The translations under genes and the position numbers were made by a program. The notes beneath the pieces were generated by a model that saw nothing but the letters and a program-made list of their open reading frames with translations, was not told where the DNA came from and ran no database searches. Shown in pieces: positions 18,219-58,694 of a stretch of DNA of 64,000 nt (positions within the stretch are counted from its first letter, which is position 1; every line of letters begins with the position of its first letter). Source of the DNA: an uncultured Schlesneria sp. (GTDB lineage: Bacteria; Planctomycetota; Planctomycetia; Planctomycetales; Planctomycetaceae); NCBI GenBank assembly GCA_903871875.1, contig CAIQIR010000079.1, forward strand, positions 124,001 to 188,000, read 5' to 3'.

Positions 18219-18365
18219 CTCCGCGTTCTTTTTCGAAGATTGATCGTCTAAAAATAACGGGCGAAGTGGATGCGTCGCGAACTGGTGATCAGGTGTCTAT
18301 AATTGGCGTTCGACCAACAAATTAAGATATTTTAACATGGACACGCCGGGTGAGGAGTAGTTTGA

Positions 18366-19304
18366 GTGGCCGACGAACATCAGTTGATTGCGAGTCTTGA
18401 GCGGAACATCGCAACGGCCATTCTGGGCAAACCCGAACCGATTCATCTGTCGTTGGTCGCCCTGTTGGCAGGGGGGCATTTGCTGGTAGAAGACGCACCG
18501 GGAGTGGGAAAAACGTCACTCGCCAAAGCGATTGCGAAAAGTCTGTCGTGTGGTTTCAAGCGACTTCAGTTCACTCCCGACATGCTGCCCAGTGATATTC
18601 TGGGATCCAACGTCTTTCTGCCCAATCGAGGCGAGTTCGAATTCCGACCCGGACCGATTTTTACCAACGTATTGTTGGCGGATGAGATCAATCGCACGAC
18701 GCCCCGAACTCAAAGCGCTCTGTTGGAAGCGATGAGTGAAGGGCAAGTGTCGATCGAAGGAACGACCCACACCCTGCCCGCCCCCTTCTTCGTGCTGGCG
18801 ACACAAAATCCCTTTGAATTCGAAGGAACGTATCCTCTGCCCGAGAATCAGCTCGACCGATTCATGGTGTGTATCGAGATTGGGTATCCCGCTCCCGATA
18901 TCGAAAAAAATGTGCTGATCAATCACCGTGAAGGTGAACCGGGTGACAAGTTGCAGTCGGTGATCAACACCGAACAATTGAAGCGGTTGCAAACGTCCGT
19001 TCGCGCCGTGAAGGTCGAAGATTCGCTGAACGATTACATTCTGGAGATCATTCAAGCGACCAGAACACACGAACAATTGCATCTGGGCGTCAGCACCCGT
19101 GGCGCCATCACGCTCTATCGTGCCGTGCAAGGGCTGGCGTTAATCGAAGGACGAAACTACGCGGTGACGGATGATGTTAAGCGTCTGGTCTTGCCCGTTC
19201 TGGCGCATCGGATCATTGTGAAAGGCATCCTGCACGAAGGCCGCCGCGACCGAGCCAAAGCGGTGCTCAAACAAATCCTGAGCAAGATTCCCGTGCCGGC
19301 CTGA
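18366..19304 (+). CDS. MoxR-family AAA+ ATPase
   Basis: 312 residues; GTG start with GGTGAGGAG eight bases upstream. AAA+ core: Walker A DAPGVGKTSLAK (about 43-53), Walker B LLADEINR (about 108), sensor 1 in LATQNPFEFEGTYPLPENQLDRF, and the C-terminal lid. MoxR proteins act as chaperones for assembling metalloenzymes or envelope complexes, usually with a DUF58 protein and von Willebrand domain proteins encoded next door. None of those partners follows here; the next gene is a permease 236 bases away. The partner set is therefore elsewhere or lost. Confidence 0.92.
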   Translation: MADEHQLIASLERNIATAILGKPEPIHLSLVALLAGGHLLVEDAPGVGKTSLAKAIAKSLSCGFKRLQFTPDMLPSDILGSNVFLPNRGEFEFRPGPIFTNVLLADEINRTTPRTQSALLEAMSEGQVSIEGTTHTLPAPFFVLATQNPFEFEGTYPLPENQLDRFMVCIEIGYPAPDIEKNVLINHREGEPGDKLQSVINTEQLKRLQTSVRAVKVEDSLNDYILEIIQATRTHEQLHLGVSTRGAITLYRAVQGLALIEGRNYAVTDDVKRLVLPVLAHRIIVKGILHEGRRDRAKAVLKQILSKIPVPA

Positions 19305-19540
19305 CCAAAGTGGCGGTCTGTCTTCTGATGCGCGTCCGATGGAATTGTCACGGACGCCAATCCGCCGCGACAGTGTACCGACGCTGACCGCGTTTGAATC
19401 GGAATCGGATCGTTGATTTCGCCTCGACGCGGTTCGTAGCTTTGATTTTATTCGCGTTCATTCGCATGATTCGTAACGCCTTCCCCGTTCCCTCAATAAT
19501 ATTCCTGATTTGCGGCGGATTTCCGCACGGAGACGTACCC

Positions 19541-21070
19541 TTGGACCATCAAACTGAGAACTCGACTGGGCTCCAGCCGAAAAAGGTCTGGATCAAATCT
19601 GAAGATTGGCTGGCGGTTCTGCTGGGAAGCATCGTGTTGCTGGTGGTGCTGGGTGCGTCGGCGATGAATCCTGCGCCGGACTTTTCTGACAAGTTGGGCG
19701 CGATTGATCAGGGACGCCAGCATTTGAAAGAACTCGAATCCGCTGCAGCGACGGCGGATGACGAAGAAACTCGAAAGCAGATCAAAACAGAAGAAAAGCA
19801 GTTGAAAGAACTGACCGCGGGTTTGTTTAAAAATCCCGTCAAATCCTGGGTGGCAAAAATGGGATCATGGAAATCAGATCCCTCGGACGCCTTCGTGGTG
19901 AAGAAGGTGAACATCGTTCCCGGCTTGTTCGGCGTTTTCATTGCTTCTCTGGTTTTGTTCACTTTTGGCGTGGCACTCAGAGGAGAACCGGTCATTCCAT
20001 TTGCCGGGGCGTTTGTCGTGCTATTTCTGCTGGCAACCGCGTCTTATGTGCTCGCCGGGCAAGATGTCATTAAATATTACAATCTGGAATACGCGCTGTG
20101 GGCGCTGCTCATCGGAATGGTGATCAGTAATACGATCGGGACCCCGCGATTCCTGTTTCCGGCGATCCGCACTGAATTGTTTATCAAAACGGGCCTGGTG
20201 CTGTTGGGCGCGGAAATCCTCCTCAGTCGCCTGCTGGTGTTGGGATTGCCGGGGATCTTTGTGTCCTGGGTCGTGACACCGATTACTTTGATCAGTACGT
20301 ACTTGTTCGGTCAGTATGTGCTGAAAATACCGTCCAAGTCGCTGAATATGGTGATCTCGGCCGATATGTCGGTTTGCGGTGTTTCGGCCGCCATCGCCAC
20401 GGCCGCCGCCTGTCGGGCCAAGAAAGAAGAGTTATCGCTGGCGATCGGGATTTCGCTGGCCTTCACCGCCATCATGATGATTGTGATGCCGGCGGTGATA
20501 CGTTACGTCCATATGGACCCAGTGCTGGCCGGGGCCTGGCTAGGCGGAACGATTGATTCCACCGGGGCGGTCGCTGCCGCAGGCGGCATGCTGGGAGATA
20601 CCGCCCTGAATGTGGCTGTCACAATCAAAATGATCCAAAATATCTTGATCGGTGTCGTGGCGTTTGGTGTTGCCGTCTACTGGGTCACCTGTGTGGAAGG
20701 CGATCGCCAAGGCCCGCGTCCGAGTTTGATGGAAATCTGGTATCGATTTCCCAAGTTTGTTTTCGGATTCGTCGGCGCTTCCATCGTCTTTTCCGCAATT
20801 TATTCCAGCGGAACCGCCGGCAGTGGCCTGACTGAGGCTGTCACCGGCGTCACGGCTGACGTGCTGCGAGGATGGTTCTTTTGCCTGGCCTTCGTCGCGA
20901 TCGGCCTCGAAACCAACTTCCGGGAATTGTCGAGTTATCTGAGGGATGGCAAAGCGATCACGCTGTATGTCTGCGGACAAACACTCAATCTGGCTCTGAC
21001 GCTATTGATGGCCTGGATCATGTTCGAAAAAGTGTTTCCGCAAGCCGCGAACGCTTTGAAGTCGTCGTGA
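19541..21070 (+). CDS. YeiH/UPF0324-type putative sulfate exporter family protein
   Basis: About 509 residues from TTG 19541, which has ACGGAG about eight bases upstream; an earlier in-frame ATG at 19394 has no ribosome binding site. The C-terminal 350 residues match the UPF0324/YeiH fold: [83 protein letters not shown] and a last helix pair, about ten membrane helices in all. The N-terminal part is unusual: one helix, then a charged, Glu/Lys-rich stretch of about 90 residues (near 37-127) before the transporter core. The substrate of the family is not proven. A small membrane protein gene overlaps the stop codon. Confidence 0.85.
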
Positions 21071-21462
21071 CTTCCGGGCTGCGAAGCGGCGGATTCGCCA
21101 TCGACGTGACGTTTACCGGGGACAGCATTTTGGTCGCGAAATCAACGGCGCAACGATGGATCCGTCTGGCGGTGGCGATGGCGGCAATCGCCATTGTCTG
21201 GCTGATTGTGCTGCCGCTCATCGGCAAGCAACCCATGGTGTCGGAACATATTGCGACCCAGCAACGTCTTCAGATCGATCCAAGTGCTTTGTTTTACAGT
21301 GAACTCGAAATCGCACCGGCCATTGCGCGTCATGTGGAACGCTTGCATGATTCATTCTCGGACTGTTTTTGGTCCGTCTCTCCGTCGAAAGACCGCACGG
21401 ACGCACAACTCGGAACGCCGCATCTCCGTAACGCTCGGCAGCAGGATCGTTCGCAGCGGTAG
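21067..21462 (+). CDS. Small membrane-anchored protein, translationally coupled to the YeiH-type gene
   Basis: About 131 residues. The GTG at 21067 overlaps the TGA of the preceding gene (GTGA), with GAAG six bases upstream, which suggests translational coupling. Features: a basic N-terminus, one membrane helix ([21 protein letters not shown], about 34-54), then [29 protein letters not shown], an amphipathic segment that reads as real coding sequence. I do not recognise a named family, though the arrangement suggests an accessory subunit for the permease. The last 30 residues ([12 protein letters not shown] onward) are polar and could be poorly conserved. It converges on the M50 protease gene. 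Confidence 0.6.
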
Positions 21463-21583
21463 ACGTCGGGAGAAATCTCCAAACCCGTCTTCGCGGGCGG
21501 AGTGAGTCGACCGGAGAAGGAAACCACGCGCCAGCTGGCCGCCCCGCTAAATGTCGGTCAACGGCTGTGCCAGTACGGTACTG

Positions 21584-22252
21584 TCATTTCCGGGATTGCA
21601 AAGATCCAATGTTTTGCAGGCAGAGCATCAACATCAGCATGGCGCCCAATTCTTGATGCAGGTGGTAGTAAAAGTAATAGGCAGCCGCGCCCGAAATGGC
21701 GACGCTGATTTTTGTCGCCGTCCCGATCCCGTCGCGAAGACGAAGCACCTGACAAACCGAAGCACAGATCTGTCCACCGTCCAGTGGCAAAATCGGTAAG
21801 AGGTTTAGCAAGCCCCACCAAAGGTTCATGAATTTCAAAAAGGCGAACGCGTAAAATCGATAATCGTTGATCAGCAGCTGATTGATGTCCAACACCTGCT
21901 CGACAATCATGATCACCACCAGGAACAGAAAACCGGCGCCAGGTCCCATGATCGAAACGGCAATGCTGCGTCCCAGGGAGTTGTTGTGGTACCGAGCCGA
22001 CATCGCCAGCCCACCGCCAAAGTAAAGTAGAATCTGGGTCGGCCAGCCAAACGTTTCCGCTGTCAGTGCGTGCCCCAATTCATGGATCAGGATCGAGAAA
22101 AATCCACACACGACCCAGATGAACATGATCTCGGGATGATCGGGATTCCAACCGAACAGCAGCATTCCCAGCCAGAATGTCGGATGCACGCGAATCGGAA
22201 TGCGAAACGCCACCAAATGGATATCAAACGGCGTAGGGCCGAGTCCGAACAT
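21584..22252 (-). CDS. Site-2-protease-like M50 metallopeptidase
   Basis: 222 residues. Intramembrane zinc protease of the M50 family without a PDZ or CBS domain. The zinc motif HELGH is at residues 57-61 inside a membrane helix, and the third ligand is Asp158 in LLPILPLDGG. Four to five hydrophobic helices are visible, in the order of the compact M50B members found in planctomycetes and actinobacteria. All catalytic residues are present. The substrate is unknown; in the family typical ones are anti-sigma factors or signal peptides. Upstream is epmB on the same strand, 113 bases away. Confidence 0.88.
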   Translation of the reverse strand: MFGLGPTPFDIHLVAFRIPIRVHPTFWLGMLLFGWNPDHPEIMFIWVVCGFFSILIHELGHALTAETFGWPTQILLYFGGGLAMSARYHNNSLGRSIAVSIMGPGAGFLFLVVIMIVEQVLDINQLLINDYRFYAFAFLKFMNLWWGLLNLLPILPLDGGQICASVCQVLRLRDGIGTATKISVAISGAAAYYFYYHLHQELGAMLMLMLCLQNIGSLQSRK

Positions 22253-22365
22253 GCAGTCGATTCACTTCACGGCAAGAGGTTTTCTAAAATCGCGTTGGGC
22301 GGGAGTATATCGCCAGACGAGCCATTCGTCTTGATAAGCATTAAGATTTACAGTGGCAGGTCGTC

Positions 22366-23418
22366 TCATATTGGTGTTTTGTGCTTGGCTCCGGCATCTT
22401 CGCGGACATATCGAGGGACGGCGTATCCAGGCAACTGTTGTCGAAGTTCGGCGATCAAAGCCTTTCCTCGCTGGGCGTCGACTTCGAAATGAGCCGTGCC
22501 CTGCACCTGATCCAACTGGTGCAAATAGTAGGGAATAACCCCCACATCGATCAGTCGTTCGCTGAGTTGAATCAGTGTCGGCAGATCATCGTTGATGCCT
22601 CGCAGCAAGACCGCTTGATTCAACGTGGTAATTCCAGATCGGACGAGCGTTTTCAACGCCTGTTCGCAATCGTCGACCACTTCATGCGGATGATTCGCGT
22701 GAACAACCATGATCGGGGTCAGTCGACTGCGTGTGAGCAGACTGGTCAACGTCCCAGTCACGCGATTGGGCAGCACGATGGGCAAGCGAGAATGAATTCG
22801 TAATCGACGGAGGTGCGGGATCGATGCTAGTCGTTCGATCAAATTGCCCAATCGTCCGTCGGTGAGCATCAATGGATCGCCACCGCTCAGCAAAACTTCA
22901 TGAATCGACGAATCGCTTTCGAGCACTGCTAAGGCCGGTTCCCAATCTTCCAGACGCCGCGGTTCGTCACCATAGGGGTAATGACGACGAAAGCAGTATC
23001 GACAGTGGACTGCGCAGGCGCCGGTTGAAACCAACAGAGCGCGACCCTGATATTTGTGCAATAACCCTGGAGCGCGTCGGCTGTTACTGTCGCCAACCGC
23101 ATCCAGAGTAAAACCGGGGACCTGCCCGAGTTCTGCTCCAATGGGCAAAACCTGTTTCAGGAGTGGATCCTGCGGGTCACCGCAGCGCATCCTCGCGACA
23201 AAACTCAGCGGGACCAGCAATGGAAATTGGCTGGCCGCTTCGCGTGCTGCGTCGATTAAATCCGTCGACAATCCCAGCTTGTGGATCAGCAACTCGGGAT
23301 CGCGGATCGCCTGCGACAGCGATTCGTGCCAGGTCGGCGGCAGAGTGGTGTCGGCAGGCAATGGGGGCTCGACAAGTGTTGGTGACAGACTCACGACATT
23401 CAATTCCAGGCAAAGCAA
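22366..23418 (-). CDS. epmB: EF-P lysine 2,3-aminomutase-type enzyme EpmB (radical SAM)
   Basis: 350 residues from TTG 23418; a GTG at about 23397 is an alternative. Radical SAM/PLP enzyme that makes (R)-beta-lysine for EF-P modification. The CxxxCxxC cluster motif is Cys135, 139, 142 in GACAVHCRYCFRRH, followed by LLSGGDPLML, the GGE-like SAM motif. At the C-terminus AGAKHKTPI keeps the KTP motif whose Lys (Lys347) should form the PLP aldimine, as in the KTP motif of E. coli EpmB and lysine aminomutases. The gene is divergent from efp, which encodes its expected substrate, and this supports EpmB over a free-lysine aminomutase. The ligase EpmA is not in the window. Confidence 0.88.
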   Translation of the reverse strand: MLCLELNVVSLSPTLVEPPLPADTTLPPTWHESLSQAIRDPELLIHKLGLSTDLIDAAREAASQFPLLVPLSFVARMRCGDPQDPLLKQVLPIGAELGQVPGFTLDAVGDSNSRRAPGLLHKYQGRALLVSTGACAVHCRYCFRRHYPYGDEPRRLEDWEPALAVLESDSSIHEVLLSGGDPLMLTDGRLGNLIERLASIPHLRRLRIHSRLPIVLPNRVTGTLTSLLTRSRLTPIMVVHANHPHEVVDDCEQALKTLVRSGITTLNQAVLLRGINDDLPTLIQLSERLIDVGVIPYYLHQLDQVQGTAHFEVDAQRGKALIAELRQQLPGYAVPRYVREDAGAKHKTPI

Positions 23419-41878: not shown

Positions 41879-44425
41879 ATGAAAACACGTTTTCTCTCTG
41901 GCTTCGCTGTCTTTCTGGTCGTTCTCGTCGCGATTTGTCGTGCCGAGGAAACCTCGCCGACGGCCGAGCAAACTGCGTTTTTTGAACAGCATGTTCGACC
42001 TCTGCTGATTGAACGCTGCCACAAGTGCCATGCCGAGGCGAAGCAGGTCAAAGGAGGTCTTCGCCTCGATTCCCGTGCGGGATGGCAAAAGGGAGGCGAG
42101 ACCGGACCGGCGGTGATTCCCGGAAAGCCCGATGACAGCCTGCTGATCAAGGCGGTGCGATACGACAATGTGGATCTGCAGATGCCACCGGAAGGCAAGC
42201 TTTCGGATGTCGAGATCGCGCGTTTGGAGGAATGGGTGCGGCTCGGCGCGCCCGACCCACGCCAGGAAGCGTCGCCACCGATGGCCGCTCGCGGCGAGCG
42301 GTTGGCGGCGACGACTCATTGGGCCTATCAACCGTCGCAGTTGCCATCGGTTCCATCCGTCCGCAATGGGGATTGGTCGCTGAACGATATCGACCGTTAT
42401 GTTCTGGCGGTGTTGGAAGAAAAAGGATTGTCGCCCTCGCCCGATGCGGATCGATATCGCTGGCTACGTCGTGTTTCTCTGGATCTAACGGGCTTGCCTC
42501 CGACAGTCGAAGAGATCCAGTCATTCGTTGATGATCGATCTGGTCAAGCGTTTGAGTCTGTCGTGGATCGGTTGCTCGCGTCACCCGCCTTCGGTGAGCG
42601 ATGGGCTCGACCCTGGCTTGATCTCGTGGGGTATGCCGATCAGATTGGATCGGCGAACAACGTTCCTGCCGAGCATGCCTGGCGCTACCGCGATTATGTG
42701 ATCCAGTCGATGAATCTCGATAAGTCCTTCGAGGAATTCGTGCGTGAACAGCTCGCAGGCGATCTTCTCGAGGCCACGAGCATTGAACAGCGACAAGACC
42801 AATTGACCGCCACCGGATTTCTGGTGCTGGGCAACGTGAACATTGTCGAAAGCGATAAGCTCGTGATGGAAATGGATCTGGTGGATCAGCAGATCGAGAA
42901 AGTGGGCAAAACGTTTCTCGGTATGACACTCAATTGCGTGCGTTGTCATGATCACAAATTCGATCCGATTACGCTGAAGGACTACTACGGGCTCGCCGGT
43001 ATTTTCGGCAGCACGGCATCGACTTACCGGGAAGAACGCGGCGTGTGGAGTTCCGTCTCGAAATCGCAGCTTCCCGAAACGCTGGAACAGTTCACACGTC
43101 GGCAGTCCGCCTTACGAGGACACGAACAAAAAGTGGCCGCCTTGCAACAGGAACGGACGGCCGCGGACGCGCGAATCAACGAGCTGGATCAACTGATCAA
43201 AGTGGCAAAAGAGATCCCGACGGAATCACCGTCCCCGCAAGTGGCCGATTGGGAAAAAGAGCGGGCTGAAGTGGTGGCCAAGCGACCTGCGTTTGAGCAA
43301 AAATTATGGCATCTCAACTATCTTCAACCATCGCCTCCGGTGGCCTTCGCTGTTAAAGACGCCGCGGTCACGGCCGATGCTCGGGTGCAGGTTCGCGGCA
43401 ATCCGCATGTTCAGGGCGCCGAAATGCCGCGAGGATTTATTCAGGTCGCCACCCATGGATCGGTCCCCGTCATCGATAAGGACCGGAGCGGTCGGTTGGA
43501 ACTGGCAGAATGGCTCACGCATGCGGCCAGTCCGCTGGTCAGTCGTGTGGCCGTCAACCGATTATGGGAACGAATGTTCGGAAAAGGGCTGGTCGGTTCG
43601 GTTGACTATTTTGGTGTCCGTGGTGAACTTCCCACGCATCCGGAATTGCTCGAATATCTGGCAAGTCGATTTGTCAGTCAGGGCTGGTCGCAGAAGCGGT
43701 TGATTCGTCAGCTGGCACTCAGCCGGACCTATCGACAACGGACCGAAGCGACCGAAACGTCACAGCGTGCCCTTTCGGTGGACCCGGACAATCACCTTTA
43801 TTGGCGGATGAGTCCCCGACGACTCGATGCCGAGATGTTGCGAGATTCGGTCCTGGCGGTCAGTGGGGGATTGGAGCCCAGCTCGGGAGGCCCGGCATTG
43901 GCACCCGAATTCGCCGAAAATGTCGGCGGTCTGAATCCCAAGGATGTGAATCCGATCAGTTTTTCACTTAACCGTTTTCGCGACAATCAGCAGCGACTGC
44001 GGACGATCTATCTGCCGGTGGTCCGCTCGTCCGATCAGCGGGGGCCGGCGGAGGTGTTGAATTTCTTCGATTTTCCACAACCGGCTCGGCTCGCTGGAGA
44101 CCGTCCCACGACGGCGGTGACATCGCAGACGTTGTTCCTTTTAAACGGTCCTTTGTTGAAGGAGGCCTCGCGAAGATTGGCCATCGAGCTTCTCTCGCAA
44201 GCCGCGTTGACGAATGACGTTGATCGGGTTACAGCATTGTATCTGCGGGTGATGAACCGGGCCGCGACATCTGAAGAGACTCAAGCAGCCCAGCTGTTTT
44301 TGGCGGCGTCCGATGATTCGACCGCGACGACGACGAATCAACCCACGGCCGGTGATGCCGCCCTGCCCTGGCAGCGGTTGATCCACGCCTTGATGGCCTC
44401 GAATGAATTCCTGTTCCGACTTTGA
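41879..44425 (+). CDS. Planctomycete DUF1549/DUF1553 cytochrome-c-like protein
   Basis: 848 residues with a signal peptide (about 1-23). Order: N-terminal PSCyt1 cytochrome-c-like domain with CHKCH (haem motif, about 44-48) and KGGLRLDSR, IPGKPDDSLL, MPPEG; DUF1549 (DIDRYVLAVLEEKGL, RRVSLDLTGLPPT, GERWARPWLDLVGYAD) with a second CVRCHDHKFDPI motif; a coiled coil at about 405-450; and DUF1553 (WLTHAASPLVSRVAVNRLWERMFGKGLV, TYRQRT, RRLDAEMLRDSVLAVSG). Covalent haem is likely from CxxCH. The family is exclusive to Planctomycetota-related lineages and of unknown reaction. It is followed after 23 bases by a DUF1501 gene, the standard pair. Confidence 0.95.
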   Translation: MKTRFLSGFAVFLVVLVAICRAEETSPTAEQTAFFEQHVRPLLIERCHKCHAEAKQVKGGLRLDSRAGWQKGGETGPAVIPGKPDDSLLIKAVRYDNVDLQMPPEGKLSDVEIARLEEWVRLGAPDPRQEASPPMAARGERLAATTHWAYQPSQLPSVPSVRNGDWSLNDIDRYVLAVLEEKGLSPSPDADRYRWLRRVSLDLTGLPPTVEEIQSFVDDRSGQAFESVVDRLLASPAFGERWARPWLDLVGYADQIGSANNVPAEHAWRYRDYVIQSMNLDKSFEEFVREQLAGDLLEATSIEQRQDQLTATGFLVLGNVNIVESDKLVMEMDLVDQQIEKVGKTFLGMTLNCVRCHDHKFDPITLKDYYGLAGIFGSTASTYREERGVWSSVSKSQLPETLEQFTRRQSALRGHEQKVAALQQERTAADARINELDQLIKVAKEIPTESPSPQVADWEKERAEVVAKRPAFEQKLWHLNYLQPSPPVAFAVKDAAVTADARVQVRGNPHVQGAEMPRGFIQVATHGSVPVIDKDRSGRLELAEWLTHAASPLVSRVAVNRLWERMFGKGLVGSVDYFGVRGELPTHPELLEYLASRFVSQGWSQKRLIRQLALSRTYRQRTEATETSQRALSVDPDNHLYWRMSPRRLDAEMLRDSVLAVSGGLEPSSGGPALAPEFAENVGGLNPKDVNPISFSLNRFRDNQQRLRTIYLPVVRSSDQRGPAEVLNFFDFPQPARLAGDRPTTAVTSQTLFLLNGPLLKEASRRLAIELLSQAALTNDVDRVTALYLRVMNRAATSEETQAAQLFLAASDDSTATTTNQPTAGDAALPWQRLIHALMASNEFLFRL

Positions 44426-44448
44426 AATTTCTCGATTGAAGGCCTGCC

Positions 44449-45885
44449 ATGCAGACTCATCCGCAGATTGGCAATCGCAACGAACTCAGCCGCCGACGGT
44501 TCCTGGAATGCTCGGCCTGTGGGTTTGGTGCCGTCGCGTTGCGTGCAATGCTGGCGGATGTGGCGTCGGCCATGGAAAGCCCGCTGGCAATTCGGGCTCC
44601 GCATTTTCCCGCCCGTGCGAAACGCGTCATTTTCGTTTTTCTGTCGGGGGGGCCATCGCAACACGATCTGTTCGTTCCCAAGCCACGACTGGAACGCGAT
44701 CACGGCAAACGTGTCGGATTGAACAATCTTCCTCGCGGTATTCCTGTGGGGACCGAACGATTTCTCACGTTGGGGCCAGCGGCCAAATTCGCCCCGCGTG
44801 GCGAATCGGGCGCGATGATTTCGGATCTGCTGCCTCATCTCGCCGGAGTGGCTGATGACTTATGTTTTCTCCATGGCATGCAGGCTGACAATCCGGCGCA
44901 CGACCTGGCAACTCTGCAATTCAACATGGGCGTCATCAACGAAGTTCGTCCATCGATGGGCGCGTGGGTCAGTTACGGACTGGGTTCCGAAAATGCGAAT
45001 CTACCGAGTTACGTCAGTATCTTTGCCGGCAGTGATGTCCGAGCTCATGGTTCGGCATTTCTACCCGCCGCACATCAGGGCACGGTGATTGGAAATATTC
45101 CCAAGGATCCGAAGGAATCCGCGATCCGTTACTTAAATGACCCGCAGACCACTCCGACCGCGCAGCGTCGGCAGATTGATTTCGTTCAGTCGATGAATCG
45201 TCAATTGTTGAATCGCGTCGTCGAAGATCGAGTGATGGAAGGTGTGGTGGATTCATTTGAACTGGCATTTCGGATGCAGGCCGAAACGCCTCGACTGGTG
45301 GACCTTTCGGGTGAATCTGAAGACACCTTGAAGCGGTATGGCGTGGGCGAGAAAGTTACGGACAAGAACGGCCGCGCGTGTCTGCTCGCACGACGGCTGT
45401 GTGAGGCGGGAGTCCGGTTCGTGCAGGTCTCGATCGGCGGATGGGATCACCACGGTAATATTCGCGACGCCATTCCCAAGACCTGTGCCGAGTCGGATCA
45501 GCCGGTGGCCGCGCTGATCGCCGATCTCAAAACACGGGGTCTGCTCGATGAGACGCTTGTGGTTTGTTCCGGCGAGTTTGGTCGCACGCCGTGGAGTCAG
45601 GATCTTTCAGGCACCGCTCCGATTGAGACTCATGGCCGCGATCATCAGCCGGAGAGCTTTACCGCGTTTCTTGCAGGAGGTGGGATCCGGGCGGGATTCA
45701 GTCATGGCGAGACGGATGACTTTGGTTATCAGGTTGTCAAAGGACGAGTCCACATCCACGATCTGCACGCGACCATTCTGCATCAACTTGGCCTCGATCA
45801 TGAACGGCTGACGTATCGTCACGCTGGCCGTGACTACCGGCTGACCGATGTCTATGGCGAAGTGGTCCGCGAAATCCTGGCGTGA
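44449..45885 (+). CDS. DUF1501 family protein with Tat leader, paired with the cytochrome-like gene
   Basis: 478 residues, ATG with GAAGG seven bases upstream. Tat-type leader LSRRRFLECSACGFGAVALR. Motifs shared with the copy at 4845: FLSGGPSQHDLFVPKP, a Tat-leader-plus-sulfatase layout, CSGEFGRTPW and GRDHQPE. Here the first block is FVFLSGGPSQHDL in place of WGGPAHQDTW, so the two DUF1501 proteins are different subgroups. HGMQADNPAHD supplies further His. It is exported in folded form if Tat is right. With the DUF1549/1553 gene upstream it forms a bicistronic unit; the substrate is unknown. Confidence 0.92.
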   Translation: MQTHPQIGNRNELSRRRFLECSACGFGAVALRAMLADVASAMESPLAIRAPHFPARAKRVIFVFLSGGPSQHDLFVPKPRLERDHGKRVGLNNLPRGIPVGTERFLTLGPAAKFAPRGESGAMISDLLPHLAGVADDLCFLHGMQADNPAHDLATLQFNMGVINEVRPSMGAWVSYGLGSENANLPSYVSIFAGSDVRAHGSAFLPAAHQGTVIGNIPKDPKESAIRYLNDPQTTPTAQRRQIDFVQSMNRQLLNRVVEDRVMEGVVDSFELAFRMQAETPRLVDLSGESEDTLKRYGVGEKVTDKNGRACLLARRLCEAGVRFVQVSIGGWDHHGNIRDAIPKTCAESDQPVAALIADLKTRGLLDETLVVCSGEFGRTPWSQDLSGTAPIETHGRDHQPESFTAFLAGGGIRAGFSHGETDDFGYQVVKGRVHIHDLHATILHQLGLDHERLTYRHAGRDYRLTDVYGEVVREILA

Positions 45886-46173
45886 ATAAACTCGCGAGTT
45901 GTGCTGGTGTTCCGCTTTGTTCAGCCATGCGGAAACTCTGTCTCGATCGTTTCGGGAATTACCGCCGAGTGGCTTAGACGCATTCCATTTGCGAGACGAA
46001 GTGCGGGCTGCGGATGGTCTCCAACGGAACTTGGGGAACCATTCTGAGGCTGCGAAATCGCCTGGTCGGCTAAGATTTCGTGTGGCTTGACGATTGGCCC
46101 AAATGCACAAGACAATTCCGTCAAATCTTGAATGCGATTGCCGATCGAACGATCACTCCTCCGGAGACGCAAC

Positions 46174-49100
46174 GTGAATGATGCTGTCAGGGATGATTTC
46201 TCGCTGGGAGTTACGGGATTTACCTTCGCCGATCTGTATGAGCCGCGGCGATTACACGCGCTGCACGACGCGTTTTGGAAATTTGCCTCCGAAATCAATT
46301 CCGAGATCGCGGCACAATTCGCGGCCTTGGATGAACCGTCGATCACGAATCCGCAGAAGTCGGAAGTGCTGATCGAAGTGGCCAGCCTGCTCGGCGAATT
46401 CCTGGGCCAGTTGTTTCACATTCGACCCGAAGTCGATCGCCTGTCGGACGAGACCTTGAATTTGGAGAAGATTTTTTTATTCAAGCAAAACTTCTTGCGA
46501 ACGCGGGTTTTTAAGCATTTCGGCAAACCTCCTGTGGCTGACGCGGAATTTCGGGTACTCGATGAAGAAGTGCAGCGGCTGGTGCAAGGTGTGCCCCCGC
46601 AAGTCGATCCCGAAATTCGCCTGGCCGACACCGTACTGAAGCTGATGCTTTGTCAGCAATCACTCGCGGCGGATGGTGATGGTTCGCAAACGGCCCTGGC
46701 AGAGCTGATCAGCGGACATCGGAACGAAGTCACGTTACTGGAGAAAGTTCAGCAGTCTCTGGTTGTGATCGGAGACTGGTGTGTGCAGGTGAATGCCACG
46801 TCCGATCGCGGTCATCACGTGGAGGGCTGGGTCTCGTTCCTGCGTCCGGAAACTCTAGATTATGAACATCTGGTGCAGATCGAGCGTCCGAGACCGGATC
46901 TGCCCGAATCGATCGTGGGTCCATCAGAGCATCGCCGGCTGCGGGACGGTTTCAAATTGACCGATCTACGAATGAGTCGCAAGGAGTATCTGCGCGAGAT
47001 CGATTATTGCATCATTTGCCATCCTCGCGAAAAGGATTCCTGTTCGCATGGATTCCGAGACAAGACGGGAGGCTGGCAACGTAATCCGCTGGGAATTGCC
47101 TTGGCCGGCTGTCCGCTGGAAGAACGTATTTCAGAAATGCATGCTTTGCGAAAACGTGGTGCGGCCATCGGCGCCCTGGCGATGATCATGCTCGACAATC
47201 CGATGTGTCCAGGCACGGGACATCGGATCTGCAACGACTGCATGAAAGGGTGTATCTTTCAGAAGCAAGATCCCGTCAACATTCCGCAGGCGGAAACGGG
47301 GGTAGTCAGCGACGTGCTGAACCTGCCTATGGGTTTCGAAGTTTACAGTCTGCTAACACGGTTCAATCCACTGAACCGCCTGCGTCCTTTCGCACTGCCG
47401 TATAACGGCGTCGATATTCTGGTCGTGGGATTGGGCCCCGCCGGTTACACGCTGGCTCACTTTCTGGCCAACGAGGGATTCGGTGTGGTCGGCATCGACG
47501 GTTTGAAGTTGGAACCGATTCCCGATTCACTGACGGGTCGCGGCCGGCCCGTGGCCACGCCGATCAAGGATTTCTCGATTCTCAAGCAGGAACTGGATGA
47601 ACGGATCCTGGCCGGATTTGGTGGCGTGTCGGAATATGGAATTACCGTACGCTGGGACAAGACGTTCCTGGCCGTGATGTACCTGACGCTGCTGCGGCGG
47701 CGAAACGTCCGATTCTTCGGTGGTGTGCGGTTTGGTGGAACGCTGACAATTGACGACGCCTGGGAATTGGGATTCCGTCACGTTGCGTTAGCGACGGGTG
47801 CGGGTAAGCCGACCGTTGTTCCAATGAAAAATCATCTCCTGCGCGGGATCCGTACGGCCAGTGATTTTTTGATGGCGCTGCAACTGACGGGGGCGTTCAA
47901 GAAATCGACCCTGGCTAATTTGCAGGTCAGGTTGCCGGGCATCGTGATCGGCGGAGGTCTGACCGCGATCGACACGGCAACCGAAATGCTGGCCTACTAC
48001 CCGGTCCAAGTCGAAAAGTCGCTGGACCAGTTCGAGCGATTGACGGCCGAATTCGGTGAAGAGAGCGTCTGGGGCATGTGCGATCCCGAAGAACAGGAAA
48101 TCTTGCGAACCTTTCTGGAACATGGTCGCGCTGTGCGTCACGAACGACAGTCGGCCCAGCGTGAAAATCGACTGCCGGATTTCGCCGCATTGTGCGACGG
48201 GTGGGGCGGTGTCTCGCTTGCTTATCGCAAGCGAATGGTGGATTCGCCCGCTTATCGGTTGAATCATGAAGAGGTTGCCAAGGCGCTCGAAGAGGGGATT
48301 CGTTTTGTTGAAAATGTGGTGCCGACCGAAGCGGTCGCTGACAGCTTTGGTGCGGTCACGGCACTCAAGTTCAAGCGAGCGGATGGTCGAGAGGTCACGC
48401 TTCCGGCTCGTTCGGTCTGTTATGCCGCGGGAACCACTCCTAACACGGTCTGCGAACGTGAGTCTCCCGGGACTTTTCAGCTCGATGCCGACGGCCGGTT
48501 TTTTCAAAAACACAAATTGGTCGCAGCCGCAGGCGGTTGGAACCTGGAACCTGTCGAGCAGTCTTCTCGGGAAGCCTTTTTCCTGTCGTACGAACGAGAC
48601 GGACGATTCGTTTCGTTTTACGGCGACAACCATCCCGACTTTGCCGGCAATGTCGTTAAGGCGATGGCCTCGGCCAAACACGGCGTGCGTCAAGTTGCTC
48701 GTCTGTTTGCCGAAGAGATCATCCAGGCGGAGACGGATGCGACGCCGCTGGAAAAGTTTGATCAACTGACGCAGCAACTGGATGAGGCATTGATTCCGCG
48801 CGTGGTCGAAGTCAAACGGCTGAATGCCAAGATTGTCGAAGTCATCGTCAAAGCGCCTTACGCCGCTCGACGATTTCAACCTGGCCAGTTCTACCGCCTT
48901 CAGAATTACGAATCACGAGCACCTCTGGTCGATGGCGTACGGCTGACCCTGGAAGGTATTGCCCTGACGGGCGCCTGGGTCGACGTGAAACGCCATCTGC
49001 TGAGTATGGTTGTCTTGGAAATGGGCGTCAGTTCGCGGCTTTGTACCGTCTTGCAGCCGGGCGAACCGGTCGTCGTGATGGGACCCACGGGGACACCCAG

Positions 49101-49755
49101 TGAAACGCCGGCGGGAGAAACAGTGCTGTTGGCGGGCGGAGGGCTGGGCAATGCCGTGCTATTTTCGATCGGCAAGGCGCTCCGCGAGCGTGGTTCGCGG
49201 GTCATCTATTTCGCCGGTTATCGTGATCACGAGCATCTGTTCTTCCAAGAAGCTCTCGAAGAAGCCACGGATCAAGTGGTCTGGTCGGTCGACAAGGGCG
49301 AACCGATTGTCCCGCGTCGTTCCCACGATTTAACATTTGTGGGGAACATCGTTCAGTCGATGCTGGCCTATGCCAAGGGTGAATTTGCCGGTCCCGCATT
49401 GATCTCATTGACGGAAGTCGATCGCGTCATCGCGATTGGGTCTGATCGTATGATGTCTGCCGTCGCTGAAGCCCGTCACACAGTGCTCAAACCTTACCTG
49501 AAGGCAGATCATGTGGGCATCGCTTCGATCAACTCGATGATGCAATGCATGATGAAAGAGGTTTGTGGTCAATGTATTCAGCAGCACGTCGATCCGGTGA
49601 CCAAGACACCGACGGAAGTGGTCTTTTCCTGTTTCAATCAGGACCAGGAGATGGACTGTGTCGATTTCGCCAATCTGCGTCAGCGACTGAAAACGAACAG
49701 CCTCGCCGAGAAGTTGACGAATCGCTATCTCGATTTGCTGATCGCGAAGAAATGA
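46174..49755 (+). CDS. Fused iron-sulfur flavoprotein: GltD/NfnB-like plus PyrK/NfnA-like
   Basis: 1193 residues from GTG 46174 (GGAG eight bases upstream); ATG 46132 is the alternative. Residues 1-270 are a helical region I do not recognise. Next is a GltD-type cluster domain: Cys279, 282, 290 and 313, then CPGTGHRICNDCMKGC (345-360). FAD site VVGLGPAGYTLAHFLANEG follows (about 415), with the second Rossmann loop IGGGLTAIDTATEM (about 590). From about 880 a ferredoxin-reductase-like domain begins: FQPGQFYRLQ, VVMGPTGTP, LLAGGGLGNAVLFS, IGSDRMM. It ends in a PyrK-like [2Fe-2S] motif, MQCMMKEVCGQC with two more Cys. NfnB and NfnA have these same two architectures as separate subunits; the fusion could pass electrons between NAD(P)H and ferredoxin. 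That role is inferred. Confidence 0.8.
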   Translation: MNDAVRDDFSLGVTGFTFADLYEPRRLHALHDAFWKFASEINSEIAAQFAALDEPSITNPQKSEVLIEVASLLGEFLGQLFHIRPEVDRLSDETLNLEKIFLFKQNFLRTRVFKHFGKPPVADAEFRVLDEEVQRLVQGVPPQVDPEIRLADTVLKLMLCQQSLAADGDGSQTALAELISGHRNEVTLLEKVQQSLVVIGDWCVQVNATSDRGHHVEGWVSFLRPETLDYEHLVQIERPRPDLPESIVGPSEHRRLRDGFKLTDLRMSRKEYLREIDYCIICHPREKDSCSHGFRDKTGGWQRNPLGIALAGCPLEERISEMHALRKRGAAIGALAMIMLDNPMCPGTGHRICNDCMKGCIFQKQDPVNIPQAETGVVSDVLNLPMGFEVYSLLTRFNPLNRLRPFALPYNGVDILVVGLGPAGYTLAHFLANEGFGVVGIDGLKLEPIPDSLTGRGRPVATPIKDFSILKQELDERILAGFGGVSEYGITVRWDKTFLAVMYLTLLRRRNVRFFGGVRFGGTLTIDDAWELGFRHVALATGAGKPTVVPMKNHLLRGIRTASDFLMALQLTGAFKKSTLANLQVRLPGIVIGGGLTAIDTATEMLAYYPVQVEKSLDQFERLTAEFGEESVWGMCDPEEQEILRTFLEHGRAVRHERQSAQRENRLPDFAALCDGWGGVSLAYRKRMVDSPAYRLNHEEVAKALEEGIRFVENVVPTEAVADSFGAVTALKFKRADGREVTLPARSVCYAAGTTPNTVCERESPGTFQLDADGRFFQKHKLVAAAGGWNLEPVEQSSREAFFLSYERDGRFVSFYGDNHPDFAGNVVKAMASAKHGVRQVARLFAEEIIQAETDATPLEKFDQLTQQLDEALIPRVVEVKRLNAKIVEVIVKAPYAARRFQPGQFYRLQNYESRAPLVDGVRLTLEGIALTGAWVDVKRHLLSMVVLEMGVSSRLCTVLQPGEPVVVMGPTGTPSETPAGETVLLAGGGLGNAVLFSIGKALRERGSRVIYFAGYRDHEHLFFQEALEEATDQVVWSVDKGEPIVPRRSHDLTFVGNIVQSMLAYAKGEFAGPALISLTEVDRVIAIGSDRMMSAVAEARHTVLKPYLKADHVGIASINSMMQCMMKEVCGQCIQQHVDPVTKTPTEVVFSCFNQDQEMDCVDFANLRQRLKTNSLAEKLTNRYLDLLIAKK

Positions 49756-54119: not shown

Positions 54120-55721
54120 ATGACCAATTCCTCTTCTCTCCCCGAAACGTGTCTCCCAAGCTGGAGTATCGCGGAATTACCCGAACCCAAGCCGCTGGGC
54201 CTTCGTAATTGGGCCAGCTTCATCGGTCCTGGGATCGTGATGATGGGCATCCAGATCGGAGGCGGCGAGTGGCTGCTCGGTCCGGAAGTGACCGCGCGCT
54301 ACGGCGGCGGATTAATGTGGATAGCCACCGTCGCCATCGTCTTACAGGTTTTTTACAACGTCGAATGCGGTCGCTATGCGCTCTATTGCGGCGAGCCGGT
54401 CATGACGGGATTTTTGCGGAAGCGGCCGGGCCCGATGCTGTGGGTGACGGTCATCATGTTCCTGAGTCTGTCGGCGTTGATTCCGGGGCTTTCGACCAAT
54501 GCCGCGGCGGTGATTGCGGCGATTTGGCTGGACCGACCGCCGGGAGTGGAAGATCGCTGGCTGGTCACGATGCTGGCCTATGCATGCTTGTTGGCCGTCG
54601 CCTTACCGGTGCTGATTGGCGGCAAGGTTTACAACATGTTGCAAGCCGTCATGACGGCGAAGGTCGTGATTGTTCTCGGTTTCTGCCTGACAATTGGCTT
54701 TCTTTTCGTCAGTCCGCTGCATTGGTGGAATGTGATGAGCGGATTTGCCAAGTTTGGAAACGTGCCGATTCGAGTTGATGGTCATGATGAGCTGAGGAAT
54801 GTGTTTCTTCAGTTTTGGCAGGATGGTTCCTGGCCGTTGATTGAACTGGGGAACATCGCCGTTCTGGGAGCGTTTGCCGGGTATGCCGGCGGCGGCGGCT
54901 TGGCCAATTCGACTTATAGCAACTATGTTCGCGACAAAGGTTGGGGCATGGGCCGGCAGGTGGGGGCAATCGCCAGCGCTGTCGGCGGCCGCGACATTAC
55001 GCTCAGCCATCTCGGCAAAGTGTTTTTGATGACGCCCGACAATCTGCGAAAATGGCGGGGTTGGTGGAGATACATTCTGACTGATCAGGTGATTGTGTGG
55101 GCTCCGGGTTGTTTCATGGGGATGGCGTTACCGGCACTGTTGTCGCTTGAGTTCGCGTCCTATTCAGAACTGTACGGCCAAACGAACAAGCTTGATTGGG
55201 CACAGGCCATGATCACGGCCGACGGTATTCGACATGCACCGAATTTTGGGCCGGCCGTAGGCCACCTGTTGTGGCTGGTGACGTTGGGCGTTGGCTTGAC
55301 GGTCTTGCTGCCTAGTCAGATGTCGATTGTCGAGGATTTCAGTCGTCGCTGGACGGATATCATCTGGTCGGCCAGCCGACATGCGCGGGATCGGATGCGC
55401 GACGATCAGGTCAAATATATTTATTACACGCTGCTATTCTCGTACGTCGTCTGGACGATGATTGCGGCATACCTGTTCAGCACGTATGGCACTCCGAAGC
55501 TGATGACGCTGATCATTGCCAATCTGAATAATCTGGCGATTGGCGTGACGGCGTTTCAATTGTTATGGATCAACGTCACACTATTGCCGCCGGAAATTCG
55601 TCCGAAGTGGTACCATCGCGCGGGAATGATCGGCTGTGGAGTGTTTTACTTGGGACTGGCATTTCTGGTGTTTGTGACGAAACAATGGCCAATCTTGCGA
55701 GATTTGTTGTACGGTTTGTGA
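54120..55721 (+). CDS. Nramp-fold transporter lacking metal-binding motifs
   Basis: 533 residues, about 11-12 membrane helices. The fold is that of Nramp proteins: GLRNWASFIGPGIVMMGIQIGGGEW in helix 1 and GAFAGYAGGGGLANSTYSNYVRDKG in helix 6. In true metal transporters helix 1 holds DPGN and helix 6 holds MPH; neither occurs here (GPGI in helix 1, GYAGGG in helix 6). It should not bind divalent metal in the usual way. The helical core beyond is well formed, so it may carry an organic substrate. Its place in a catabolic cluster supports that. Ribosome binding site is weak. Confidence 0.8.
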   Translation: MTNSSSLPETCLPSWSIAELPEPKPLGLRNWASFIGPGIVMMGIQIGGGEWLLGPEVTARYGGGLMWIATVAIVLQVFYNVECGRYALYCGEPVMTGFLRKRPGPMLWVTVIMFLSLSALIPGLSTNAAAVIAAIWLDRPPGVEDRWLVTMLAYACLLAVALPVLIGGKVYNMLQAVMTAKVVIVLGFCLTIGFLFVSPLHWWNVMSGFAKFGNVPIRVDGHDELRNVFLQFWQDGSWPLIELGNIAVLGAFAGYAGGGGLANSTYSNYVRDKGWGMGRQVGAIASAVGGRDITLSHLGKVFLMTPDNLRKWRGWWRYILTDQVIVWAPGCFMGMALPALLSLEFASYSELYGQTNKLDWAQAMITADGIRHAPNFGPAVGHLLWLVTLGVGLTVLLPSQMSIVEDFSRRWTDIIWSASRHARDRMRDDQVKYIYYTLLFSYVVWTMIAAYLFSTYGTPKLMTLIIANLNNLAIGVTAFQLLWINVTLLPPEIRPKWYHRAGMIGCGVFYLGLAFLVFVTKQWPILRDLLYGL

Positions 55722-56696: not shown

Positions 56697-58694
56697 ATGA
56701 CTAGCGTTTCTGCCGCTTCAACATACTTGGGTATTTATCGAACGATGCAGCTCATCCGTCAGACGGAAGAGGAACTGGCTCGTTGTCATCAGCGGGGGCT
56801 CATTCACGGTGCGTGTCACACGTATGTCGGTGAAGAAGCGATCGCCAGCTCGGTCTGTGCCCATCTTCGCAAGGAGGATGTGGTCTTCAGTACGCATCGC
56901 GGGCATGGGCATGCCTTGGCGAAGGGGTTGCCCCCCAGCGAACTGATCGCGGAATTGTTCGGGCGGCAAACAGGGTGCTCGCGAGGCCGTGGCGGCAGCA
57001 TGCATCTGTTCTCGCCAGAAGTCGGCATGATGGGGACCAGCGGCATTGTCGGTCCCTGTGTGCTGCAGGCCTGTGGTGGTGGTTACAGCTTCAAGATGAA
57101 GAAGATTGACAACGTGGCCGTGGCCTTTTTCGGAGATGGAGCCGTCAACAACGGAGCGTTCCACGAAGGGCTGAACATGGCCAGTATCTGGAAGCTGCCC
57201 GTGTTGTTTATCTGCGAGAACAACCAGTTCGCGACCGAGGTCCCCTTCGCCTACGCTGCCGGTAATCCCAGCGTGGGAAGTCGTGGAGTTGCCTATGGTC
57301 TGCCGGGTTTGACGGTCGACGGCAATGACGCGATCGAGCTCAGTCGAGTGGCGAGTGAGGCGGTGGAGCGTGCACGTTCCGGTGGTGGTCCGACCTTGAT
57401 CGAATGCATGACCTACCGCACGCGAGCTCACGCCGAAGGGATGGGTGACTTCGGTTACCGGACGCGAGAAGACGTTGACGGATGGAAGCAGCGCTGTCCG
57501 ATTCAGCGGTTGCGCACGAACTGCGTCGCGGAAAAGCTGATCTCGGCGGCAGACTTCGATGCGGTGGATGCTGAAATCAAGAAGCTGGTGGACGAGGCTC
57601 GGCGGCTCGCTGAAGCCGGTCCATTCCCAGATCCAGCGACGGCCACTCAACATGCTTATTCGGAATCGCCTCGTTCATCGACCACGCCCATTCAGAACGT
57701 GCGACCGGCGGCGACGGTCCGTGAAATCACCATGACACAGGCGACTCACGAAGCGCTATCGGAAGAGATGGCGAAGAATCCCTTGATCTTCGTCATGGGC
57801 GAAGGGATCGGTAAACGAGGTGGTAACTTTATGACGACCGCCGGTCTTTACAACATTTACGGCCCGACGCGTCTGTGTGATACGCCGATCTGCGAACGAG
57901 GATTCGTCGGATTGGCCTGCGGCGCGGGAATGACCGGCACTCGACCGGTGATCGATTTTATGTTCGCCGATTTTGTGCTCGATTCGGTGGGCGAGATCGT
58001 CAACCAGATCGCCAAGATGCAGTACATGAGCAGCGGCCGACTGAAGATGCCGGTGCTGTTGCGAGGCTGCATCGGCATCGGCCACTCGGCCGCGACACAC
58101 CATTCTGGGAATTACTATGCAATGTACGCGCAGATCCCGGGACTAAAAGTCGTGGTACCCTCGTCCGCGTATGACGCAAAGGGGCTATTCAAGCATGCAC
58201 TGAATAGCGACGATCCGGTCTTGTTTCTCGAACATCGGGAAATTCTGTCCATCAAAGGACCGGTGCCTGAAGGCGAATATGAAATCGAATTCGGCCGGGC
58301 GAACGTTGTTCGATCGGGACGCGATGTCACCGTGGTCGCTTTGGCCCGTATGGTTCACCTGACTCTTTCCGTTTGTGACGAACTGGAAAAGTCGGGAATC
58401 TCGGTCGAAGTAATCGATCCTCGGACCGTCTTGCCGCTCGACATCGAAACAATTCTGCAGTCGGTGAAGAAGACCGGACGGTTGCTGGTTGTCGACGAAG
58501 GCTTTGCCCCATGTGGTTTCGCCGTCGATGTCGCGGCGCAAGTAGCGGATCGTGGATTCAATGATCTGGACGCCCCGATTAAGAGGATCAACGGAGCCTT
58601 CACACCAACACCCTATAGCCCACCGCTGGAGAAGGCGGTGGTGCCGCAATCGGATGATATTCTCAAAGCGATTCGTGACCTGATGAACGAATAA
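56697..58694 (+). CDS. 2-oxoacid dehydrogenase E1, fused alpha and beta subunits
   Basis: 665 residues. The alpha half (1-320) has the thiamine diphosphate motif GDGAVNNGAFHEGLNMASIWKLPVLFICENN (about 142-172) and TYRTRAHAEGMGDFGYRTREDVDGW, and the beta half (about 345-665) has MTQATHEALSEEMAKNPLIFVMGEGIGKRGG, RLCDTPICERGFVGLACG, a Glu-containing VLLRGCIGIGHSAATHHS loop and VIDPRTVLPLDIETIL. The linker (about 320-345) is Ser/Pro-rich. Most bacteria encode the halves separately; single-chain E1 is rarer. Best matched by acetoin/pyruvate-type complexes. E2 follows 117 bases later; no E3 is present. Confidence 0.92.
   Translation: MTSVSAASTYLGIYRTMQLIRQTEEELARCHQRGLIHGACHTYVGEEAIASSVCAHLRKEDVVFSTHRGHGHALAKGLPPSELIAELFGRQTGCSRGRGGSMHLFSPEVGMMGTSGIVGPCVLQACGGGYSFKMKKIDNVAVAFFGDGAVNNGAFHEGLNMASIWKLPVLFICENNQFATEVPFAYAAGNPSVGSRGVAYGLPGLTVDGNDAIELSRVASEAVERARSGGGPTLIECMTYRTRAHAEGMGDFGYRTREDVDGWKQRCPIQRLRTNCVAEKLISAADFDAVDAEIKKLVDEARRLAEAGPFPDPATATQHAYSESPRSSTTPIQNVRPAATVREITMTQATHEALSEEMAKNPLIFVMGEGIGKRGGNFMTTAGLYNIYGPTRLCDTPICERGFVGLACGAGMTGTRPVIDFMFADFVLDSVGEIVNQIAKMQYMSSGRLKMPVLLRGCIGIGHSAATHHSGNYYAMYAQIPGLKVVVPSSAYDAKGLFKHALNSDDPVLFLEHREILSIKGPVPEGEYEIEFGRANVVRSGRDVTVVALARMVHLTLSVCDELEKSGISVEVIDPRTVLPLDIETILQSVKKTGRLLVVDEGFAPCGFAVDVAAQVADRGFNDLDAPIKRINGAFTPTPYSPPLEKAVVPQSDDILKAIRDLMNE

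Follow-up and report, generated by a model that had tools for sequence, protein, structure and literature searches.

NADH-dependent ferredoxin:NADP oxidoreductases (Nfn) couple an NfnB subunit, which resembles GltD, to an NfnA subunit, which resembles PyrK. They occur mostly in anaerobes, where they transfer electrons among NADPH, NADH and ferredoxin. In Thermotoga maritima NfnB, the distal [4Fe-4S] cluster is ligated by Cys39, Cys42, Cys47 and Cys100 and the proximal cluster by Cys51, Cys90, Cys96 and Glu117, and the YRR motif of NfnB serves the NADP phosphate (PMC7596348). Liang et al. state that every Nfn has the arginine that contacts N5 of the bifurcating FAD (PMC6405883, section 8), and the [2Fe-2S] motif is given as DGTGMCGxCRx10CV with an Asp ligand (PMC6405883). 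Fused forms include “pattern C” of Mobiluncus, Alpha- and Gammaproteobacteria, a single chain with the NfnA part at the C-terminus (PMC6405883), and AadN of Rhodopseudomonas palustris, a pattern B fusion that is at least 51% identical to the NfnI subunits and works in anaerobic aromatic degradation (PMC9973337). Bifurcating enzymes are considered rare in aerobes (Poudel et al.), and one species is named in a 2019 paper as the only aerobe known with Nfn homologues. Here we describe a gene from an uncultured Schlesneria sp. (assembly GCA_903871875.1), located in a 64,000-nucleotide stretch of contig CAIQIR010000079.1 (positions 124,001 to 188,000; hereafter the window), that encodes a single-chain Nfn-like iron-sulfur flavoprotein of a family found with haem-copper oxidase. 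We regard the protein as, most probably, an oxidoreductase of aerobes that acts on NADPH and NAD(H) and has a low-potential side arm.

An initial annotation of the window had described GltD-type Cys sets, two Rossmann folds, a PyrK-like FAD/NAD module and a terminal [2Fe-2S] Cys set in one Nfn-like chain, and all of these elements are recovered by Pfam, NCBIfam and Protein Data Bank (PDB) matches. The Pfam matches are Pyr_redox_2 (5.7e-12) and, under its cut-off, Fer4_20 (E 0.013). A PDB sequence search places Pyrococcus furiosus NfnI at the top for both halves (small subunit, 7.4e-16; large subunit, 9.8e-13), and the family profile finds the related Xfn large subunit first and NfnI second. 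The AlphaFold model, built on an 83-row family alignment, has a mean predicted local distance difference test score (pLDDT) of 91.1 and a predicted template modelling score of 0.90; its Foldseek matches are 5vj7_A (5.2e-21), 5jfc_L (9.5e-20) and the small subunit 5jca_S (8.8e-17). Structure assigns the class of each half, and sequence profiles assign the subfamily. Among the open reading frames (ORFs) of genomes that carry the family, the profile of the N-half gives NfnB 66 and 60 bits against 10.5–38.9 bits for 12 GltD-like ORFs, and that of the C-half gives NfnA 73 bits against 23–31 bits for three PyrK-like ORFs, the GltD-like and PyrK-like control labels having been assigned here from length and PRK12778 matches. 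Both halves are thus nearer to Nfn-type proteins than to GltD or PyrK. Generic ferredoxin-NADP reductases, which the initial annotation had named as the possible better match of the C-half, were rejected as its closest kin, as NfnA is best in the PDB sequence, profile and Foldseek searches.

The cluster ligands were located by mapping those of T. maritima NfnB onto the window protein through an alignment with a planctomycete NfnB. This yields a distal set of C279, C282, C290 and C360 and a proximal set of C313, C353, C356 and E374 (codon at 47293–47295), so that both Cys sets and the Glu ligand, which the initial annotation had singled out for checking, fit Nfn positions. The 83-row alignment comprises the window protein and 82 of 85 full-length relatives (50–83% identity to the window protein), with three near copies (L031, L033 and L034) omitted; 13 of 98 loci, partial or short-matching, lie outside it, and three pairs of rows (L013/L090, L006/L076 and L012/L063) are identical over the tree region. 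Across these rows, the seven Cys and Glu374 are invariant except for C360 (82/83). R493 is likewise present in 83/83 rows, and the aligned residue is Arg in 2/2 NfnB and Lys in 5/5 GltD-like controls, as it is in the named GltD 7mfm_I by PDB alignment. From the alignment and its place within the stretch GGVxxYGIPxFR, we take R493 to be the N5 residue itself. The YRR-type NADP motif occurs in most rows in a conservative form (R685 in 83/83; position 686 is K in 65 and R in 18). A motif check of the 98 relatives recovered the R493 motif and the [2Fe-2S] motif in 95 each and the second Cys set in 94; the [2Fe-2S] misses are two cut chains (L086 and L011) and L020 (genome G081), of which the first of two ORFs was scored. 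In that locus the family gene is split into residues 8–608 and 671–1162 by a frameshift or an assembly error. A very divergent 1035-residue member (L106) from a 1.4-Mb genome (G711) keeps the Fe-S ligands and has a different sequence in the stretch that corresponds to EGxALT.

The family recurs well beyond chance. With a threshold of E 1e-50, it occurs in 19/246 genomes of the window's phylum, spread over 12 genera (0/12 other genomes of the host's own taxonomic family), in 54/117 genomes of the phylum to which a Myxococcus genome belongs and in 17/398 genomes of that to which a Methylomonas genome belongs. The haem-copper oxidase subunit COX1 is encoded in 19/19 carriers of the window's phylum against a background of 193/246 (Fisher p 0.016), and in 27/27 carriers when eight genomes of other phyla are added; these co-occurrence tests ignore kinship, and the metagenome-assembled genomes (MAGs) among them may be incomplete. 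The COX1 family, PF00115, also takes in nitric-oxide reductases. Canonical NfnB (TIGR01316 over its cut-off) shows the opposite tendency, occurring in 58/246 genomes, 38 of which lack COX1 and 20 of which have it (avoidance p 4e-18). Two carriers (G146 and G233) have canonical NfnAB as well, so the family is no simple replacement of NfnAB. In G146 (contig C217, ~16539–22700; L006/L137), the fused gene has canonical nfnB and nfnA as direct neighbours on the other strand, in divergent orientation.

Taken together, the sequences and the models show the domain make-up, the ligand sets, an N5-type arginine, an NADP motif, an all-Cys [2Fe-2S] site and the occurrence of the family with COX1; the cofactors, direction and carrier, and a docking role of the N-terminal domain, are inferred. 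We favour, with confidence that is evenly balanced, a reading in which oxygen-respiring bacteria use this single-chain, Nfn-like protein as an NAD(P)H oxidoreductase that would connect NADPH and NAD(H) with a one-electron carrier of low potential. In this scheme, NADPH would reduce the FAD of the NfnB-like half, from which one electron would pass through the C-terminal [2Fe-2S] cluster and the second FAD to NAD+, and the other through the proximal and then the distal [4Fe-4S] cluster to ferredoxin or another small carrier. The carrier may dock close to the helical N-terminal domain and to the insertion that lies by the distal cluster, and the reverse direction, confurcation to NADPH, would also be possible. 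Bifurcation is the least certain step; it is possible and is not implied by the sequence. Tentatively, and as a somewhat doubtful extension, aerobic respirers such as myxobacteria, acidobacteria, planctomycetes and methanotrophs may have flavin-based electron bifurcation or confurcation through a whole clade of such single-chain enzymes, in which the all-Cys [2Fe-2S] site and the new helical domain would choose the low-potential partner.

Several observations weigh against this reading. In the C-terminal half, the Asp ligand of the NfnA [2Fe-2S] cluster is replaced by Cys1125 in 83/83 rows, and the PyrK-like controls too have Cys at this position. DHODB, which also has Cys there, is not known to bifurcate. 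The FAD motif ERxPxT has become EGxALT (E927 in 83, G928 in 81, A930 in 83 and T932 in 83 of the 83 rows). The +80 mV potential of the Nfn [2Fe-2S] cluster has been tied to the Asp ligand (PMC6405883, PMC8097209), and the case of P. furiosus NfnII shows that bifurcation need not extend to close homologues of Nfn (PMC8097209). A planctomycete member (L096) has Gly at C360 of the distal cluster. Structure comparison with VIA separates neither NfnB from GltD (residues 225–847 against the NfnI large subunit 5jfc_L: Z 26.2, root-mean-square deviation (rmsd) 2.4, 433 aligned; against GltD 2vdc_G: Z 25.0, rmsd 3.1, 420 aligned) nor NfnA from PyrK (residues 868–1189 against NfnA 4yry_C: Z 13.3, rmsd 2.6, 260 aligned; against PyrK 5ksw_B: Z 13.6, rmsd 2.7, 253 aligned). 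The window's own genome, a 99.99% complete assembly, has no POR_N protein at E 1e-10, as is the case for 18/246 genomes, and therefore no ferredoxin source of the POR type.

The low-potential arm is accordingly Nfn-like, and the high-potential arm is altered and PyrK-like in its ligands. Owing to the Asp-to-Cys and ERxPxT-to-EGxALT changes, bifurcation cannot be read from the sequence as it can for Nfn, and the failure of these two features points to an Nfn-like sister family, nearest to PRK06567 at about half the cut-off of that model, rather than to canonical Nfn. The earlier proposal of an Nfn/SudAB-like bifurcating enzyme thus holds for the Nfn-like halves and the [4Fe-4S] sets, and departs from the evidence at the [2Fe-2S] Asp and the ERxPxT motif.

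A real possibility, although one we rate short of even, is that the protein is a non-bifurcating NADPH:NAD+ transhydrogenase or NADPH (or NADH):acceptor oxidoreductase whose [4Fe-4S] clusters relay electrons to one protein bound at the N-terminal domain, much as GltD-like modules do in GltS, DPD and DsrL. The all-Cys [2Fe-2S] site and the altered flavin motif fit this view, as do the insertions and N-terminal domain specific to the family, and GltD-like modules are reported to serve the non-bifurcating GltS and DPD (PMC8097209), with DsrL described as an NAD(P)H:acceptor oxidoreductase (PMC7596348). The N5-type arginine and the Glu-ligated proximal cluster are as in Nfn and speak for the Nfn-like scheme, although the Glu is found in the aligned GltD-like proteins as well and bifurcation is not proved by either feature. 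Genome content bears on both readings. The window's genome lacks PntB as well as POR, which favours the non-bifurcating reading, but across the phylum PntB is not significantly avoided (6/19 carriers and 115/227 others, Fisher p 0.15). With PntB in 18/58 canonical-NfnB genomes and 121/246 of all genomes, a strict replacement of PntAB was rejected. POR_N proteins occur in 16/19 carriers, 212/227 others and 58/58 canonical-NfnB genomes; on these counts and their absence from the window's genome, a common family role as the ferredoxin partner of 2-oxoacid:ferredoxin oxidoreductase was rejected.

Two further readings come from the database name and from the neighbouring genes. The best NCBIfam model, PRK06567 (NF005128; 585.6 bits, 1.8e-175), is named “putative bifunctional glutamate synthase subunit beta/2-polyprenylphenol hydroxylase”, and together with the GltD-like fold this would make the protein a glutamate synthase subunit with 2-polyprenylphenol hydroxylase activity. 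We consider this the most improbable of the readings: the curated cut-off of 1072 is not reached, the dedicated GltD model TIGR01317 gives 36.9 bits against a cut-off of 447.7, no glutaminase or FMN synthase domain is among the Pfam matches, and the window's genome has a separate 495-residue GltD-like protein. The profile preference for NfnB over GltD-like ORFs and R493 in place of the GltD Lys led to its rejection. The fused-Nfn models are themselves far behind PRK06567, with PRK12778 at 1.2e-39, under its cut-off, and PRK12779 (944 positions), which may be of the pattern C type, a weak match at 108 bits where the cut-off is 1519. Membership of a local hydroxy-acid (lactate-type) catabolic unit, in which the protein would supply or drain electrons for the adjoining dehydrogenases, is very unlikely. 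An L-lactate permease lies next downstream, followed on the same strand by D-2-hydroxyacid and Ldh_2 dehydrogenases, but 258 bp separate the stop codon from the permease start, no neighbour cluster is seen in more than 7 of the 81 stretches compared (80 loci plus the window), and the two nearest homologues, at 83% identity, have different flanks. On these grounds an operon with the dehydrogenases was rejected, and because the neighbours are not conserved and the window's genome has no POR-type oxidoreductase, the suggestion in the initial annotation that the enzyme feeds the dehydrogenases that follow is unsupported. The Nfn-like oxidoreductase of oxygen-respiring bacteria remains the reading that we prefer.

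The extra N-terminal domain noted in the initial annotation is present and, in the AlphaFold models, all-helical; folded alone, it has a pLDDT of 89.8. It varies faster than the rest of the chain (30% mean identity to the window protein, compared with 53–69% in the other measured segments). The domain of the window protein matches 0 Pfam families, and no family recurs over 57 members (7 families, one member each), this N-terminal set being 57 of the 83 alignment rows. Its profile gives no sequence match in the PDB, and the structural matches to its model are unconvincing (an E of 0.96 at best in Foldseek and a Z of 4.4, over 63 residues, in VIA), the VIA candidate list testing mostly residues 11–83. 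The missing Pfam and PDB matches do not show a new fold. In 13/18 Pseudomonadota places, the match to PRK06567 starts from profile positions 2–7 (the other five start from 14, 16, 137, 207 and 438), and the domain therefore appears common to a wider family. Relative to NfnB, there are also three insertions: one lies between C290 and C313, one within the FAD domain (~residues 443–480) and one within the NADP domain; the Fe-S spacing differs by the first of these and by a shorter second motif. The features are collected in the table.

Features of the Nfn-like gene and its product, in window coordinates
Feature	Coordinates	Strand	Basis
Single-chain Nfn-like Fe-S flavoprotein gene	46174..49755	+	Open frame, 1193 aa, GTG start
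All-helical N-terminal domain (~residues 18-216), fold unrecognised	46225..46821	+	Full and separate models
GltD/NfnB-type Fe-S domain (residues 269-400)	46978..47373	+	83-row alignment, NfnB alignment
~22 residues C290-C313 beside distal cluster (where the NfnB motif of PMC6405883 has 3)	47044..47109	+	NfnB alignment
FAD-binding Rossmann domain (residues 411-606), N5-type R493 at 47650-47652	47404..47991	+	Pfam, alignments
Mostly helical ~70-residue insertion (607-677) in NAD(P)H domain	47992..48204	+	Model, NfnB alignment
Rest of NAD(P)H domain, Y684-R685-K/R686 as NfnB YRR counterpart	48205..48723	+	83-row alignment
NfnA/PyrK-like FAD + NAD(H) module (residues 868-1110), EGxALT for ERxPxT	48775..49503	+	Profiles, alignments, model
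C-terminal [2Fe-2S] site C1125-x5-C1131-x2-C1134-x18-C1153	49546..49632	+	83-row alignment, NfnA alignment

The reading frame is open over the interval first reported for it and encodes the whole protein in one chain. An in-frame ATG lies upstream of the GTG, at 46132; the two homologues from Schlesneria MAGs (L022 and L024, 83% identical) can also start with GTG at the same place, and the GTG at 46174 is therefore probably the true start. In a quick tree, in which two branches (L106 and L117) are very long, the window protein groups with the Schlesneria proteins (SH-like approximate likelihood-ratio support 100); a MAG with the label Proteobacteria joins them next. The family is not a planctomycete peculiarity, since nine phyla, by record title, are represented in the 83-row alignment. 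A search of the named genome collection at a loose threshold confirmed at least 555 stretches, 80 of which were kept, and the titles among these 80 include Acidobacteria, Myxococcota, Planctomycetota, Ignavibacteria, Chlorobiota, Nitrospirota, Armatimonadetes, Acidimicrobiia and gammaproteobacterial methanotrophs. Pseudomonadota relatives, which score up to 756 bits on PRK06567, keep the ligands wherever the chain is complete, and none of the members in the three phylum samples (246, 117 and 398 genomes) exceeds the cut-off of that model. The family is thus a real and well-conserved Nfn-like family, uncharacterised as far as our searches show.

Downstream of the Ldh_2 protein lie a 533-residue protein, a short-chain dehydrogenase and a fused E1 dehydrogenase. 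The first of these (54120–55721) has no Pfam match at 1e-8 and by eye has the look of an Nramp-type membrane protein; the last (56697–58694) is a 2-oxoacid dehydrogenase E1 alpha/beta fusion with E1_dh, Transket_pyr and Transketolase_C in one chain. Upstream (41879–45885), a PSCyt1/DUF1549/DUF1553 protein is followed by a DUF1501 protein, a pair that is common in planctomycetes, and a DUF1501 protein is the only window ORF that recurs beside the two closest homologues. The commonest neighbour clusters, found in 7/81 and 6/81 stretches, come nearly all from records titled Acidobacteria or kin. Neighbour genes were called crudely as longest ORFs, and many stretches end at contig ends; in some loci the family gene itself was displaced by long ORFs that seem to run antisense to it, 13 of which form a second cluster. 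Subject to the truncation of many loci, the gene looks like a stand-alone unit.

The family keeps the Nfn low-potential ligands in genomes that, for all 19 carriers of the phylum, also encode a haem-copper oxidase, and it reaches 54/117 genomes in the Myxococcus phylum. If it is active like Nfn, low-potential ferredoxin chemistry in aerobes becomes directly testable; if it is not, it helps to sort which Nfn residues coupling needs. The inherited PRK06567 name also stands as a warning, as the label “glutamate synthase/2-polyprenylphenol hydroxylase” misleads: in a Neorickettsia genome paper, the glutamine-to-glutamate step is placed partly on a protein so labelled (PMC5481527), which is presumably of the same family as the window protein. 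Searches of the open-licence PubMed Central literature by model name, by Nfn with aerobes and by annotation label listed no study recognisable as dealing with the PRK06567-like family.

Compared with NfnAB, the family has the same two halves, [4Fe-4S] ligands including the Glu, N5-type arginine, YR(K/R) motif and nucleotide folds, whereas it differs in being one chain with the NfnA half last, in its helical N-terminal domain and three insertions, in the Asp-to-Cys change at the [2Fe-2S] cluster and the replacement of ERxPxT by EGxALT, and in the company of COX1, found in 19/19 family carriers and in 20/58 canonical-NfnB genomes. PRK06567/NF005128, the best curated model for the window protein, is itself uncharacterised and misleadingly named. 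The description as a fused Nfn stands as to the single chain, but the domain order is not new, having been published as pattern C (PMC6405883), with which, as described there, the family shares it. AadN is, like the family, a fused Nfn homologue and occurs in a proteobacterium, but it is of pattern B. With PyrK of DHODB, the family shares an all-Cys [2Fe-2S] site, as judged from the PyrK-like controls, and a similar fold, whereas its C-half prefers NfnA over PyrK-like ORFs and its chain contains no dihydroorotate dehydrogenase domain.

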